Below are positions 54,811-60,613 of a DNA stretch of 64,000 nt, piece after piece. Position 1 is the stretch's first letter, and each line of letters begins with the position of its first letter. Source of the DNA: Olleya marilimosa CAM030 (GTDB lineage: Bacteria > Bacteroidota > Bacteroidia > Flavobacteriales > Flavobacteriaceae); assembly GCF_000518485.1 (NCBI RefSeq), contig NZ_JADR01000001.1, positions 620,001-684,000 on the forward strand, read 5' to 3'. A program made the position numbers and the translations under genes. The notes below the pieces were generated by a model. The model was not told the DNA's origin, ran no database searches, and worked only from the letters and a program-made list of their open reading frames with translations.

Positions 54811-54827
54811 ATTTAGAAACTCTAAAT
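54811..54827. terminator. Small hairpin between convergent genes
   Basis: The 7-bp stem atttaga/tctaaat with a 3-base loop overlaps the end of the racemase-like gene and may end both transcripts. Confidence 0.35.
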
Positions 54828-55478
54828 AAAATCTACAGCTTCTTCAAGCTGAATCTGAGCCATATCATAAACCAATTTATTTTTGGAATTTTGTATTACA
54901 GACAACTCTGTACATGCCAAAACCACGACTCCGTTTGTTGTATATTTTTTAAGCAGATTATTAAAAATCATTAATTGCTCTTGGGTTTGTTGATTATTAT
55001 AAACCGAAATTCTTAAATTATCAATTTGAGACATTTCTTTTACGTTTGGTTGCAAAACCATTATATTTTCCGCTTCAAATTTGGATTTAATATAGTCGGA
55101 CTGCATGGTATGTCTTGTTCCAAAAAGGGTCACTTTAGCGTGTTTATTCTTTAGTATTTTAGCTATAGTTTTGGTTATAGGATGAATTATTTTGGTTGAA
55201 ATATTTAACCTGTCAATGGTTTCATGTAAGGTTATATTTGGGATTAAAATAGCGTCTATTTGCAGTTCTTCTAGGTTTTTAATACATGATTTTACAATTA
55301 TATCTAATTCTGTAGAAGTATTTGGAAGTAAATTATTTATGGTATTAAAATCTACATTTAGCATTTTAAAAGGACACGTACTAAATCCGCCATACTTTGT
55401 ATTATAAAAGGTGTTAAGCTTTTGTATATAATACAAGGTTGAAAAACTTCCTAATCCTAATAATCCTAATGTTTTCAT
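54822..55478 (-). CDS. Aspartate/glutamate racemase-like protein lacking the first catalytic Cys
   Basis: The 218-residue protein aligns with Asp/Glu racemases such as YgeA (GLLG at the start, GTRHTM and the second catalytic site ACTEL with C189). The first site, normally C-x-N-T-x-H, reads PNITLH (80-85), so the first catalytic Cys is replaced by Pro. The GGMS phosphate/substrate loop at the N-terminus is also altered. It may be an isomerase or lyase with one-Cys chemistry, or a non-catalytic relative. The start overlaps the EgtD stop by 4 bases (ATGA), so it is translationally coupled to the ergothioneine genes. Confidence 0.75.
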   Translation of the reverse strand: MKTLGLLGLGSFSTLYYIQKLNTFYNTKYGGFSTCPFKMLNVDFNTINNLLPNTSTELDIIVKSCIKNLEELQIDAILIPNITLHETIDRLNISTKIIHPITKTIAKILKNKHAKVTLFGTRHTMQSDYIKSKFEAENIMVLQPNVKEMSQIDNLRISVYNNQQTQEQLMIFNNLLKKYTTNGVVVLACTELSVIQNSKNKLVYDMAQIQLEEAVDFI

Positions 55479-56422
55479 ACTATTTCAAGGATGTAATTAG
55501 CAAAATAGTTGTTACTATCCTTTAGTTTATTTTTAATACAAAATTGTGTGTTAGCAATAATCTGATTTAAAATATCATCATTATATTTTCTAGAAATTTC
55601 TAAATGAATTTTTTCGTCTTTTGCAAAATGAAAGGTTTTATCTATAGCCTTAATATATACCTCTTGGTTTTTAATGCTTGTTAGGTAACTTTTAGCAATA
55701 CCTTCTTTTTCATTATAAGTTGGCGTATGCACAAAATTGTTTGGGTTAAAATCACCCTGTAATTCGTTATTAATTCGGTCTAATAAATTTAAATTAAAAG
55801 CAGCTGTGACACCTTGACTGTCGTTATAAGCTGGTAAAACTATAGCTTCGGGTTTTATTAAATCTACACCTAAAAATAGTTTGTCACCTAAGTTTAAATT
55901 AGCACTTAGGTTTTGCATAAATATTGATGCAATAGCATCATTCATGTTGCCAATATTAGAACCTAAAAATAGTATTACTTTGGGATGATTACTATGCTTT
56001 AAAGATTCTAAAACCTCAAAATAATCACCTTGTTTTGTTTTAACTGAAACAAAGGGTAATTCTGTTTTTAAATTGTTTTCAAGATTATCTAAGGCATTCT
56101 GAGAAATATCGACAGGTAAATAATCAAAATTATAACCTTCTTTGCTTAACAATTTAAGTAGCTCTTTGGTTTTTGTGCCATTACCAGCACCTAATTCTAT
56201 CAGTTCAAAATAGGTGTCTTTCTCTAATTTTAAAGATGCTATGATATTAGACGTTTGGTTTTTAAAAATATCATGCTCTGCTCTAGTCAAGTAATATTCT
56301 GGCAGACCCATTATTTTAACAAAAAGCGCATCTCCTTTTTTATTGTAAAAATATTTAGATGGTAAATTTTTATGTGGTGCGCTTAAACCGTTGTTTACAG
56401 CCTCTTTAAATTGTTCTATCAT
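55475..56422 (-). CDS. egtD: L-histidine N-alpha-methyltransferase (EgtD-like)
   Basis: The 315-residue protein belongs to the EgtD methyltransferase family: LPSKYFYNKKGDALF, the SAM motif ELGAGNGTKT, FLGSNIGNM and the C-terminal HLEISRKY. It would trimethylate histidine to hercynine, the first step of ergothioneine biosynthesis. EgtB is encoded 3 bp upstream and the racemase-like protein overlaps its 3' end. Confidence 0.88.
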   Translation of the reverse strand: MIEQFKEAVNNGLSAPHKNLPSKYFYNKKGDALFVKIMGLPEYYLTRAEHDIFKNQTSNIIASLKLEKDTYFELIELGAGNGTKTKELLKLLSKEGYNFDYLPVDISQNALDNLENNLKTELPFVSVKTKQGDYFEVLESLKHSNHPKVILFLGSNIGNMNDAIASIFMQNLSANLNLGDKLFLGVDLIKPEAIVLPAYNDSQGVTAAFNLNLLDRINNELQGDFNPNNFVHTPTYNEKEGIAKSYLTSIKNQEVYIKAIDKTFHFAKDEKIHLEISRKYNDDILNQIIANTQFCIKNKLKDSNNYFANYILEIV

Positions 56423-56425
56423 AAA

Positions 56426-57574
56426 TTATTTTACTAATCTAATTCCTGTGTATTGCCAGCGCTCTAATGGACTGAAAAAATTTCTATATGTATTCCTGCT
56501 ATGGTTTTGTGATGTTGCAACAGATGCGCCACGAAGGACCATTTTGTTGCTCATAAACTTTCCGTTATACTCGCCTACTGCTCCATTTGCTTTCTCAAAG
56601 TTTGGATAAGGAAGGTATGCACTTGCGGTCCATTCCCAACGTTTTCCCCAATCAAGGTTTTTAGAAGCGACTTCCCATTCAAATTCTGTTGGTAATCGCA
56701 TCCCTTTCCATTCTGCGTAAGCATTAGCTTCATAAAAGTTAATATGACCTAATATGGCGTTTTTATCCACAAGTTGTAAACCTGCTAAAGTGTAGTAATG
56801 CCATTCTTGGTCCATTTTATACCAATATAAAGGTGCATTTACCTGGTTTTTATTTACCCAAGACCAACCTTCGTCTAACCAAAGATTAAAATCTGAATAA
56901 CCTCCAGCTTCCATAAATGCAATGTAATCTCCATTGGTTACTAAAAAGTTGTTTATTTCAAAGTCATTAATAAAGACTTTATGTACTCCTAACTCGTTAT
57001 CGTAACAAAAGTCATTTCCTTTATAGCCAATCTCATAAACACCTTCCTTTATTTGAAAGGTTTCTTTAGATTGATTATGATTTTTTAAAAGGTTCTCATC
57101 CTTTTTATAAACCGGAAATAATGGATTGTGACCAAACATATATTTAACATCTGTAACCAATAATTCTTGATGTTGTTGCTCGTGGTTTAATCCTAAAATG
57201 ATTAAATTGGTTAATTCTTTATTTGAATTTTGAGCTAATAATTTTAAAACATGTTCATCTACATAACTTCTATAATCCAATACTTCACTAGTAACAGGTC
57301 TAGACATATTACCTCTATTAGATTGTAATATGCGTGATCCTAAAGTATTGTAGTAACTATTAAATAGGAAACTGTAATTATTGTTAAACTCTTTATAATC
57401 AGGTAAAAATTGTTTTAAAATAAACTCTTCAAAAAACCAAGTGGTGTGTGCTAAATGCCATTTTGGTGGACTTGCAAAAGCAACCACTTGAATTGAATAA
57501 TCTTCAACATTTAAATGACTGCAAAACGATACTGTTTGCGCTCTTACCTGTTTAAAATGTGTTACAATATTCAT
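56426..57574 (-). CDS. egtB: Hercynine sulfoxide synthase-type protein (EgtB-like)
   Basis: The protein has 382 residues from 57574 (MNIVTHF); starts at 57589 or 57613 are also possible. It has a DinB-like domain with the iron ligands H (WHLAHTTW) and HEQQHQ, and an FGE-sulfatase domain ending in the RNTYRNFF and RWQYTGIRL motifs. EgtB joins a sulfur donor to hercynine with O2 on a 3-His iron site. Neither EgtA nor EgtC is nearby, so cysteine is a likelier donor than gamma-glutamylcysteine, but this is inferred. A separate C-S lyase (EgtE) is not seen in the window. Confidence 0.87.
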   Translation of the reverse strand: MNIVTHFKQVRAQTVSFCSHLNVEDYSIQVVAFASPPKWHLAHTTWFFEEFILKQFLPDYKEFNNNYSFLFNSYYNTLGSRILQSNRGNMSRPVTSEVLDYRSYVDEHVLKLLAQNSNKELTNLIILGLNHEQQHQELLVTDVKYMFGHNPLFPVYKKDENLLKNHNQSKETFQIKEGVYEIGYKGNDFCYDNELGVHKVFINDFEINNFLVTNGDYIAFMEAGGYSDFNLWLDEGWSWVNKNQVNAPLYWYKMDQEWHYYTLAGLQLVDKNAILGHINFYEANAYAEWKGMRLPTEFEWEVASKNLDWGKRWEWTASAYLPYPNFEKANGAVGEYNGKFMSNKMVLRGASVATSQNHSRNTYRNFFSPLERWQYTGIRLVK

Positions 57575-57613
57575 ATTTAGATTTGCCATTATCATCAAAT
57601 TTAAACAATCCAT

Positions 57614-58232: not shown

Positions 58233-58246
58233 ATGAGTATTAAAAA
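58208..58246 (+). repeat. 13-bp tandem repeat spanning the start codon
   Basis: The unit tgagtattaaaca is present at 58208-58220 and 58221-58233, with a third near-copy at 58234-58246. The duplication creates an upstream ATG (58220) whose 7-codon frame ends at 58243, and the true start at 58233. Confidence 0.8.
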
Positions 58247-58973
58247 ATTGGTCTCATATAAAATTAGGAAAAACACGACTGTTTTTGATCTTCTATTTTT
58301 TTTAGTGTTTATAACTACAATAATATTAAGTATTACGCTTAAAGAAAAAAAGAATTTAATTTACATTTCTCCAATTGTTATATTAACAATAATCATTAAG
58401 TATTTTAGTGTTGTAAAAAAGAAATTAGACCCTTTATTTATAATAGCTTTACTAGCTTTTCTTTTTCTTAACGTGATAAGTTTTTATGCTTATAATAAAT
58501 ATTTTAATACCATTAGTTTACTAACATCAACCTATTTAATACTTTTTTCTTTAATACTTAAAAAATATCTTATTAAAAGTAGGCTCAAGTCCTTTTTATC
58601 TTTATCAGTTGTTTTAGGTGTTTTATTAGTGGGTTATGTAATTTATGCTGTTGTGGACTTATTAATTGGTCAAATGCCCAATTCTAACTTGATTTTTATT
58701 CTAATTTGTGCTGTATGCTTATTTATATACTCCATCACATTTGCTATAATTTATATTAGTGATAATTATGAAAATGCTACTATTTTATTAGCTTCAGGAG
58801 TAGCAACTATTTTTAATCTATGTTTATCTCCTATAAATGAGTATTTTTTATACAATCAAACATTTAGTGTTCTAATATTATTCTGTCATTACATGTCTTT
58901 ATACCTTTTCATGAAGTTTATTACAACAACTAAAATCATTAATCCCGATGATGTAAAAAATAAATATTTTTAG
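58233..58973 (+). CDS. Integral membrane protein of unknown function
   Basis: The 246-residue protein has about seven hydrophobic segments and a basic N-terminus (MSIKKLVSYKIRK). The layout and a late CHYMSLYLFMKF segment vaguely resemble YhhN-like lysoplasmalogenases, but I cannot confirm that. The start codon is embedded in a 13-bp tandem repeat. Confidence 0.6.
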   Translation: MSIKKLVSYKIRKNTTVFDLLFFLVFITTIILSITLKEKKNLIYISPIVILTIIIKYFSVVKKKLDPLFIIALLAFLFLNVISFYAYNKYFNTISLLTSTYLILFSLILKKYLIKSRLKSFLSLSVVLGVLLVGYVIYAVVDLLIGQMPNSNLIFILICAVCLFIYSITFAIIYISDNYENATILLASGVATIFNLCLSPINEYFLYNQTFSVLILFCHYMSLYLFMKFITTTKIINPDDVKNKYF

Positions 58974-59115
58974 AGTTTATTTAATATGTTTTTAAACAAG
59001 TAACAATTTAAATAGAGTTTAAAAATTTTTATAGAAGACTAATACTACTTTTCTTCTTTTAGCTTTAAAATTTACAGATGTTATATTTTTAAGAAATTTT
59101 AACGTATTTTAATAT

Positions 59116-59143
59116 TTTGGTATGGCTTTATGCTATACATTTG
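59116..59143 (+). promoter_or_regulatory. Promoter of the riboswitch-transporter transcript
   Basis: TTTG (59116-59119) and TACATTTG (59136-59143) are separated by 16 bp, a little shorter than usual. The start of transcription would fall just before the RNA element at 59158. Confidence 0.5.
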
Positions 59144-59157
59144 CCGACTTAAATTAA

Positions 59158-59299
59158 TTATCAAGAATCTCAATAAAAGGAGATAGCAACCTGCAATAAC
59201 AAGCAAGGTGCTAAATAGATAAGCCAATTAATTGGAACAAATGTTAACTCATACTTCTTTTTACTTGTTGCTATTTCCTTTAAAAAATGAAAAGGAAAC
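59158..59299 (+). ncRNA. Compact SAM-I (S-box)-like riboswitch with translational expression platform
   Basis: The aptamer region 59158-59222 has P1 ttatc/gataa (59158-59162 and 59218-59222), the AAGA after it, a short P2 (59167-59171 and 59180-59184), GCAACC, a P3 with a bulge (59189-59194 and 59203-59209) and GGTGCTAAAT. These are the core S-box words, but P2 has no kink-turn, no GGGA/CCC pseudoknot partner, and there is no P4. Downstream, 59267-59281 can pair over 15 positions with 59176-59190 (one G-U), or 59274-59281 can pair perfectly with the ribosome binding site 59291-59298. The two are exclusive, giving a clear on/off switch. The next gene is a MetT-type transporter, a known target of SAM riboswitches. 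Confidence 0.7.
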
Positions 59300-60613
59300 A
59301 TGGCAAATTCAAAAACAATTACTCCAAAATTTTCAGCATTAATACCACTATTCGTATTTGTATTTACGTTTTTAGGAGTAGGTATTTATCAAAACGATTT
59401 TTACGCACTTCCAGCTCCAATTGCAGTTATAGTTGGTATAATTGTGGCGTTTTTAATGTTTAGACAATCTATAACCTCTAAAATAAATACGCTGCTTAAA
59501 GGTTGTGGTGACGACAAGATCTTAACCATGTGCCTTATTTATTTATTAGCAGGTGCATTTGCTACCATTACTAAAGCAACAGGAAGTGTAGATGCTATTG
59601 TTAATTTAGGGCTAGATTATATTGCAATACAATATATCTATTTTGGTGTATTTATAATTGCAGGATTTTTATCGGTTTCTACAGGTACATCTGTTGGAGC
59701 TATAGTAGCTTTAGCTCCAATTGTGATTGGTTTTGCAGATAAAAGCAACGTAGATTTAGGTATATTATGTGGTGCATTATTAGGTGGTAGTATGTTTGGA
59801 GATAATCTTTCTGTTATTTCAGATACTACTATTGCTGCAACACAGTCTTTAGGTTGCAAAATGAGTGACAAGTTTAAGCAAAATATTAAAATTGCTTTTC
59901 CAGCAGCTTTAATTACTATTGGTATTTTAATTGTTCAAGGTTTTGGCTTAAAAGAAGTAAAATCAGAAGCTATCATTTATACGTATTCAGTAGTTAAAAT
60001 TTTACCTTATTTATTAGTTATCATATTATCAATAATAGGTATTAATGTGTTTGTTACGTTACTATTAGGTGTTATTGCTGGTGGTTTGTTAGGTATTATT
60101 TATGGAGATTTTACATTAATCGAATCCACTAAAATTGCATACAATGGTTTTACTAGCATGACCGAAATCTTTTTATTATCTCTTTTAACAGGTGGCTTAG
60201 CTGCTTTGGTTGAAAAAAATGGAGGTATTGATTTTATTTTAAATAAAATTAAAACTTTAATTAAAAGTAAACGCTCAGCTCAGCTAGGTATTGCTACATT
60301 GGTTGGTACTATTAATATGGCTATTGCTAATAACACAGTATCTATTATCATAGCTGGTCCCATAGCAAAAACAATCAATGATCAATATCATTTAGATAAC
60401 AAAAAAACTGCTTCAATTTTAGATATTTTTGCCTGTATTATCCAAGGAATCTTGCCTTATGGTGCACAAGTATTAATGATACTTAGTTTTGCTAATGGTA
60501 AAATTGATTATTTAGATTTAGTATCTAATACCTGGTATTTATTACTATTATTTATTTACACAATACTATTAATTATGTTTAAACCTTTTGTTTTAAAAAC
60601 AAATCTCATTTAA
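59300..60613 (+). CDS. NhaC-family transporter, probable methionine transporter (MetT-like)
   Basis: The 437-residue protein has about eleven hydrophobic segments and the NhaC-type motifs SVSTGTSVGAIVALAPI, GGSMFGDNLSVISDTT and IANNTVSIIIAGP. Members of this family controlled by SAM riboswitches were assigned as methionine transporters (MetT), and the compact S-box-like RNA just upstream supports that role. A Shine-Dalgarno AAGGA, rare in this phylum, is at 59292-59296 and lies within the switchable hairpin. Ordinary Na+/H+ antiport remains possible. Confidence 0.8.
   Translation: MANSKTITPKFSALIPLFVFVFTFLGVGIYQNDFYALPAPIAVIVGIIVAFLMFRQSITSKINTLLKGCGDDKILTMCLIYLLAGAFATITKATGSVDAIVNLGLDYIAIQYIYFGVFIIAGFLSVSTGTSVGAIVALAPIVIGFADKSNVDLGILCGALLGGSMFGDNLSVISDTTIAATQSLGCKMSDKFKQNIKIAFPAALITIGILIVQGFGLKEVKSEAIIYTYSVVKILPYLLVIILSIIGINVFVTLLLGVIAGGLLGIIYGDFTLIESTKIAYNGFTSMTEIFLLSLLTGGLAALVEKNGGIDFILNKIKTLIKSKRSAQLGIATLVGTINMAIANNTVSIIIAGPIAKTINDQYHLDNKKTASILDIFACIIQGILPYGAQVLMILSFANGKIDYLDLVSNTWYLLLLFIYTILLIMFKPFVLKTNLI

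Follow-up and report, generated by a model that had tools for sequence, protein, structure and literature searches.

Bacteroidota are reported to be naturally without Shine-Dalgarno (SD) sequences, with secondary structure tuning initiation (work on Flavobacterium johnsoniae, PMC6847099), and how translational riboswitches work in this phylum is therefore a fair question. The 64,000-nucleotide stretch of Olleya marilimosa CAM030 DNA analysed here (the window) raises it directly, as a SAM riboswitch-like leader stands ahead of a transporter gene. An original prediction took this leader for a minimal SAM aptamer, perhaps a new variant, joined to a two-state switch that hides an SD sequence. Which aptamer is it, and what does the switch act upon?

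A SAM-I/IV aptamer ahead of the gene

By cmscan, positions 59153–59251 (forward strand) matched SAM-I/IV (RF01725) over model positions 1–99 of 99 with 62.3 bits (gathering threshold 41.1). This was the sole match above gathering within the 64-kb window and the best of its clan there (one overlapping clan match scored lower), and a whole-genome search at E ≤ 0.001 found this one RF01725 match in the genome. The leader was aligned with those of 62 related loci (alignment A1, 63 metT leaders; L112 was removed, its leader being identical to that of L099). The parts of the aptamer were as follows.

59153–59251, forward strand: SAM-I/IV riboswitch aptamer (cmscan with RF01725; the whole-genome search agrees)
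59158–59162 with 59218–59222, forward strand: P1 helix, around P2 and P3 (Rfam alignment; 98.7% of cells paired, 63 leaders)
59167–59184, forward strand: P2 hairpin, five uninterrupted pairs without a kink-turn internal loop (Rfam alignment; 99.7% of cells paired, 63 leaders)
59185–59212, forward strand: P3 hairpin (Rfam alignment; 99.8% of cells paired, 63 leaders)
59197–59201 (UAACA, P3 loop) with 59242–59246 (UGUUA), forward strand: PK-2 pseudoknot, five pairs (pairing; alignment A1)
59224–59235, forward strand: P5 hairpin (Rfam alignment; 98.8% of cells paired, 63 leaders)

The Rfam alignment and the sequence bore out the predicted P1-P2-P3 order, the five-pair P2 and the absence of a kink-turn loop and of P4. 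The pseudoknot had also been thought missing. This was right for PK-1, absent here as in the class, and wrong for PK-2, which is present along with hairpin P5: in A1 the aptamer helices and PK-2 held standard pairs in 99.4% of cells, against 17–40% in slid registers. One PK-2 pair varied (A-U in 31, G-U in 19, G-C in 12 and unpaired in 1 of the 63 rows); most aptamer pairs never varied and for that reason carried no covariation, and most core columns were invariant.

SAM-I riboswitches have PK-1. The P2 of the window element lacks the internal loop that forms the kink-turn in SAM-I (RF00162), and the element agrees with SAM-I/IV in the full-length model match, the P2 without internal loop, PK-2, P5 and the absent PK-1. 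That class was reported in 2010 as the SAM-I-IV-variant, with SAM-I and SAM-IV features, no P2 internal loop and a distribution given as several phyla, marine (PMC2864571), and its structure 4L81 is described in PMC5393176. The SAM-IV cryo-EM paper (PMC6890682) describes it with an undivided P2, without PK-1 and with P4. The window element differs in the last point: no P4 lies between its P3 and the 3′ strand of P1. P4 is absent also from the Rfam consensus structure, and it was therefore not treated as defining the class, though that paper gives it. SAM-I, SAM-IV and the window element have a common SAM-binding core; SAM-I has a kink-turn and P4 and SAM-IV has PK-1 and PK-2 (PMC6890682), and the window element has only PK-2 of these.

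A short P2, an absent kink-turn and an absent PK-1 are thus features of a known class and do not make a new minimal form. The idea of a new minimal aptamer was given up in view of the full-length RF01725 match and the intact PK-2; as judged from its sequence, the aptamer is a further example of SAM-I/IV, and it would be expected to bind SAM. A search of the same genome with Rfam SAM-II (RF00521) gave 0 matches, which does not imply absence, as the search controls likewise gave none.

The downstream gene and related leaders

The leader lies between a promoter-like motif and the transporter gene.

59136–59143, forward strand: probable promoter −7 box, TACATTTG (TAnnTTTG), read from the sequence
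59300–60613, forward strand: metT-type transporter gene, 437 aa, NhaC family (open reading frame; PF03553)

Flavobacterial sigma-A promoters have the consensus TAnnTTTG at −12 to −5 (PMC9723704), and from this box a transcript start at about 59148 would be expected. The gene product, predicted to be of the MetT type, was placed in the NhaC family of transporters by PF03553 (E 1.7e-27) and scored 94.3 with TIGR00931, under its cut-off of 370. MetT is a predicted sodium-dependent methionine permease of Vibrio and Shewanella (PMC4239095). The gene at 59300–60613 is probably a methionine transporter, a substrate consistent with the SAM riboswitch. Upstream of the riboswitch, 58233–58973 (forward strand) encodes a 246-residue hydrophobic protein that matched neither Pfam nor NCBIfam families at E ≤ 0.001.

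Within the genus, RF01725 was detected in 7 of 10 genomes (that of CAM030 counted). Among 299 family genomes it was detected at E ≤ 0.001 in 42 and over the cut-off in 41, and a phylum sample had it in 34 of 395 genomes (30 over the cut-off). A MetT protein search of named genomes yielded 142 relatives, of which the best 80 were kept; the aptamer core stood upstream of the start in 63 of the 65 closest of these 80 (L084–L148, MetT identity 73–90% except L142 at 58%). The two loci without a core, L110 (98 nt upstream, at the end of a short contig) and L142, were left out. All 20 metT loci submitted to Rfam, drawn from the 63 with a core, scored above gathering, and 0 of 17 other loci did so (L110, L142 and 15 distant relatives, L149–L163, at 40–44% identity). 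Sets of 64 leaders given below consist of the window and the 63 loci, the duplicate L112 counted.

A downstream strand complementary to P2/P3

Three further segments were defined by complementarity and folding.

59176–59190, forward strand: aptamer strand predicted to be open to invasion (P2 loop, P2 3′ strand and P3 5′ strand), the 15-bp complement of 59267–59281
59267–59281, forward strand: candidate switch strand, pairing with 59176–59190 or with the start region (duplex energies, folds, alignment A1)
59291–59306, forward strand: start region in the proposed OFF hairpin, 59291–59297 plus AUGGCAA at 59300–59306 (leader fold, alignment A1)

The predicted complementarity of 59267–59281 to 59176–59190, 15 bases with one G-U, was exact. 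The window duplex came to −21.8 kcal/mol, whereas dinucleotide-shuffled platforms averaged −8.6 (z −5.6), and none of 100 shuffles equalled it. Among 64 metT leaders the mean z was −3.24, with 43 below −2 and 21 at −2 or above (start positions of L120, L128 and L131 were misplaced in this run and right in the partner-swap and start-pairing run). Conservation among homologous leaders, by which the original prediction was to be judged, was therefore found for this pairing. Own partners paired better than swapped ones (mean −15.9 vs. −14.3; matched in 0 of 5000 permutations, which took no account of relatedness). The platforms of L104 and L126 were started about 11 nt too early in the z and partner-swap tests and partly in the transcript folds.

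In A1, 78.0% of the cells of the anti-aptamer helix were paired, against 43–65% in slid registers. Thirteen cells were changed on both sides, a number reached by 0 of 500 shuffles; three pairs had two-sided change, reached by 168 of 500. On the MetT protein tree, the pairs listed (six tested) had 0.9–1.5 independent co-changing row pairs vs. 0.0–0.1 for two offset controls, too few for a sign test.

Transcripts of different length were folded. When the window transcript ended just past the switch strand, the invading helix had a probability of 0.90, and the invaded state was about 9.4 kcal/mol better than a forced aptamer reckoned without ligand or pseudoknot energy. For such transcripts of 63 leaders the mean invading probability was 0.59 (39 above 0.5) vs. 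0.11 with shuffled platforms, and in 59 of 63 the forced aptamer was less stable than the invading state. With the full-length window leader the two states were nearly equal, the invading helix having a probability of 0.00–0.01 at equilibrium.

Predicted pairing of the same strand with the start region

As predicted, 59274–59281 is perfectly complementary to 59291–59298. In the fold of the window leader, the switch strand paired with 59291–59297 and then with AUGGCAA at 59300–59306, over the start codon and codon 2. The start hairpin had 63.5% of its cells paired in A1 (63 leaders), against 46–56% in slid registers, and 6 of 500 shuffles reached 63.5%; as for pairs with two-sided change, 415 of 500 shuffles had at least as many.

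When the downstream region was folded alone (64 leaders; platform starts of L104 and L126 reset here and in the platform-shuffling control), the mean probability of an unpaired start codon was 0.23 vs. 0.45 for platform shuffles; the corresponding values for a comparison set of 40 window open reading frames were 0.47 and 0.44. Masking of the switch strand raised the mean for AUG to 0.43 (64 leaders). In the window itself it fell from 0.18 free to 0.10 masked because other bases took over the pairing. AUG was unpaired with a mean probability of 0.23 in the aptamer state vs. 0.49 in the invaded state (63 leaders), being more open when invaded in 49 and no more open in 14. On passing from aptamer to invaded state in the window, AUG rose from 0.18 to 0.49 and positions +4 to +9 from 0.36 to 0.77 unpaired, and −12 to −1 stayed at 0.40 in both.

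Composition controls gave smaller margins. Pairing up to AUG had a mean z of −0.47, with 5 of 63 leaders below −2; when codons 2–3 were included and the switch strand was shuffled, the mean was −0.75 (−1.33 for the 34 AUGGC leaders, −0.09 for the 30 others). The alternative hairpin of the predicted structure takes in the start codon, a result that is weak against composition controls in relatives without AUGGC, and the start pairing is less well supported than the pairing of switch strand and aptamer. The start region itself matched an aptamer 11-mer at best in 6.5 of 11 positions (64 metT leaders), against 5.0 (30 leaders of other SAM-I/IV genes) and 5.5 (41 window open reading frames), but the metT and control 11-mers were one base apart in error, and the comparison is given no weight.

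These small z values, together with the A-rich start regions, would suit control exerted by the aptamer and PK-2 only. The switch strand would then owe its complementarity to base composition, as a pyrimidine-rich segment opposite an aptamer rich in purines and a start region rich in A. Yet PK-2 alone does not cover the start codon, because its 3′ strand ends 53 nt upstream, and the anti-aptamer pairing both exceeds composition-preserving shuffles and is specific to metT leaders. We regard such a by-product of composition as quite unlikely.

What, then, is covered? In the window AAAAGGAAAC precedes AUG, as concealment of an SD sequence by a new minimal aptamer would have it. Against that reading, the aptamer is of an existing Rfam class with PK-2, an SD-like 4-mer (GGAG, GAGG, AGGA or AAGG) occurs at −20 to −4 in only 3 of 64 metT leaders, the window included, and the phylum is reported to be SD-less (PMC6847099); concealment of an SD in this way is very improbable. 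An SD sequence as the conserved sequestered target was rejected on the 3 of 64 count. The predicted two-state switch thus survived in its general idea and in its first pairing, conserved in relatives, and lost its proposed target. With the phylum reported to be SD-less, no SD conserved in these leaders and both the start codon and codon 2 covered in the fold, the ribosome-binding-site part had to be changed, and the start codon region, 59291–59297 plus AUGGCAA, is the better reading of the second partner.

An extra AUG was seen at −25 to −5 in 20 of 63 metT leaders and in 4 of 40 window open reading frames. Of 22 such AUGs in metT leaders, 16 stood at −13 or −14 and 19 were out of frame; that of the window (59287–59289) would lie within the OFF hairpin as proposed, in its loop. 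It is possibly a decoy start.

A proposed kinetic switch at the start codon

From these structures we think it probable that the SAM-I/IV riboswitch shuts off translation of the methionine transporter when SAM is plentiful, by way of a switch strand between the aptamer and the start region. We infer the direction of control, the sequence of co-transcriptional events and the effect on translation to be as follows. The switch strand (59267–59281) would be transcribed ahead of the start codon. Without SAM it would invade the aptamer at P2/P3, and the start region would stay open. With SAM, P1, P2, P3 and PK-2 would be locked and the switch strand would remain free; it could then pair with 59291–59297 and with AUGGCAA, over the start codon and codon 2, so that ribosomes would be blocked from starting. 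The decision would be kinetic, invasion occurring unless SAM has already locked the aptamer. The model needs co-transcriptional kinetics because the full-length window leader disfavours the invaded state at equilibrium.

Many SAM riboswitches terminate transcription, and Rho sites could become accessible in a leader that is not translated; were SAM to cause termination, intrinsic or by Rho, upstream of metT or early within it, the start hairpin would be incidental. A scan of 59000–59420 for an intrinsic terminator (hairpin plus T run) found none, however, and the proposed OFF hairpin ends within the coding sequence. Transcriptional control is therefore considered unlikely, and control at the start codon is preferred.

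Leaders of other genes and other layouts

The metT leaders were compared with SAM-I/IV leaders of other genes. In the set L001–L083, eight loci were without a core by pattern, L023 was dropped (pattern match elsewhere), and repeated platforms were dropped in this contrast. A strand against P2/P3 (z < −2) was found in 51 of 79 metT leaders vs. 1 of 44 leaders of other genes, and a strand against the P1 5′ strand (anti-P1, z < −2) in 1 of 79 vs. 19 of 44. The metT leaders thus have a different expression platform from the SAM-I/IV leaders of other genes in this comparison, and there are at least two expression platforms on the SAM-I/IV aptamer in this phylum, the P2/P3-invading one going with metT. 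Burial of the start codon in leaders of other genes was unsupported (0.37 vs. 0.415 for shuffles; 30 leaders, 14 loci without a usable open reading frame excluded). The two platforms offer a natural comparison of anti-P2/P3 with anti-P1 switching on one aptamer class.

The metT platform is a conserved variant, with the start codon as its likely target in an SD-less phylum. We are somewhat inclined to go further and see in flavobacterial metT leaders a distinct conserved SAM-I/IV platform without any SD, in which one strand would choose, kinetically and before the start codon is transcribed, between GAGAUAGCAA, the aptamer P2/P3 strand, and the start region (GAAACAUGGCAA in the window, GAAAUGGCAA in some relatives). 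Elsewhere in the phylum, ahead of other genes, the SAM-I/IV aptamer would often be joined to an unrelated anti-P1 platform.

Start-codon burial by a SAM riboswitch already has a precedent. In the SAM-I riboswitch of the Xanthomonas campestris met operon, the start codon is hidden within a hairpin of the expression platform when SAM is bound, and control is mainly translational (PMC7270179); the window leader would resemble it in both respects, as proposed from predicted structure. Unlike the window element, the X. campestris riboswitch has a SAM-I aptamer, also employs an SD and an anti-SD, and senses uncharged initiator tRNA (PMC7270179); the metT leaders conserve no SD, and their switch strand targets P2/P3. 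Our search of a collection of open-access papers found no description of SAM-I/IV expression platforms in Bacteroidota, and the available excerpts of PMC11477058, PMC3766115 and PMC12452182 contained no treatment of them. To the question of how a translational riboswitch may work without an SD, the metT leaders offer a concrete, testable answer: the start codon itself would be covered.

Some metT leaders were without an anti-P2/P3 strand (e.g. L066, L068, L070 and L072). In L066, L068 and L070 (about 62% protein identity), GUCAUAA folds onto UUAUGAC, which holds the start codon, and by eye the GUCAUAA strand nearly complements the P1 5′ strand. A second layout, GATTCTG...CAGATTC or similar just before ATG, was seen in Winogradskyella and Gelidibacter metT leaders (L121–L125, L127, L128 and L131). 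The anti-P1 strand was common in leaders of other genes (e.g. L026, L037, L047 and L059). Ten small open reading frames (102–242 aa) following such leaders gave 0 Pfam matches at E ≤ 0.001, and one 40-residue fragment gave no Pfam family. Four RF01725 matches were found in one genome (G059), with about 1.8 kb between two of them; another (G591) had two, separated by about 1.5 kb.

On the reverse strand of the window, 54822–57613 holds genes of the EgtB type (TIGR03440, above cut-off), the EgtD type (SAM-dependent histidine methyltransferase, TIGR03438 at 283.6 against a cut-off of 290.9) and the Asp/Glu racemase family in a row, probably an ergothioneine cluster adjoining the SAM-riboswitch gene.
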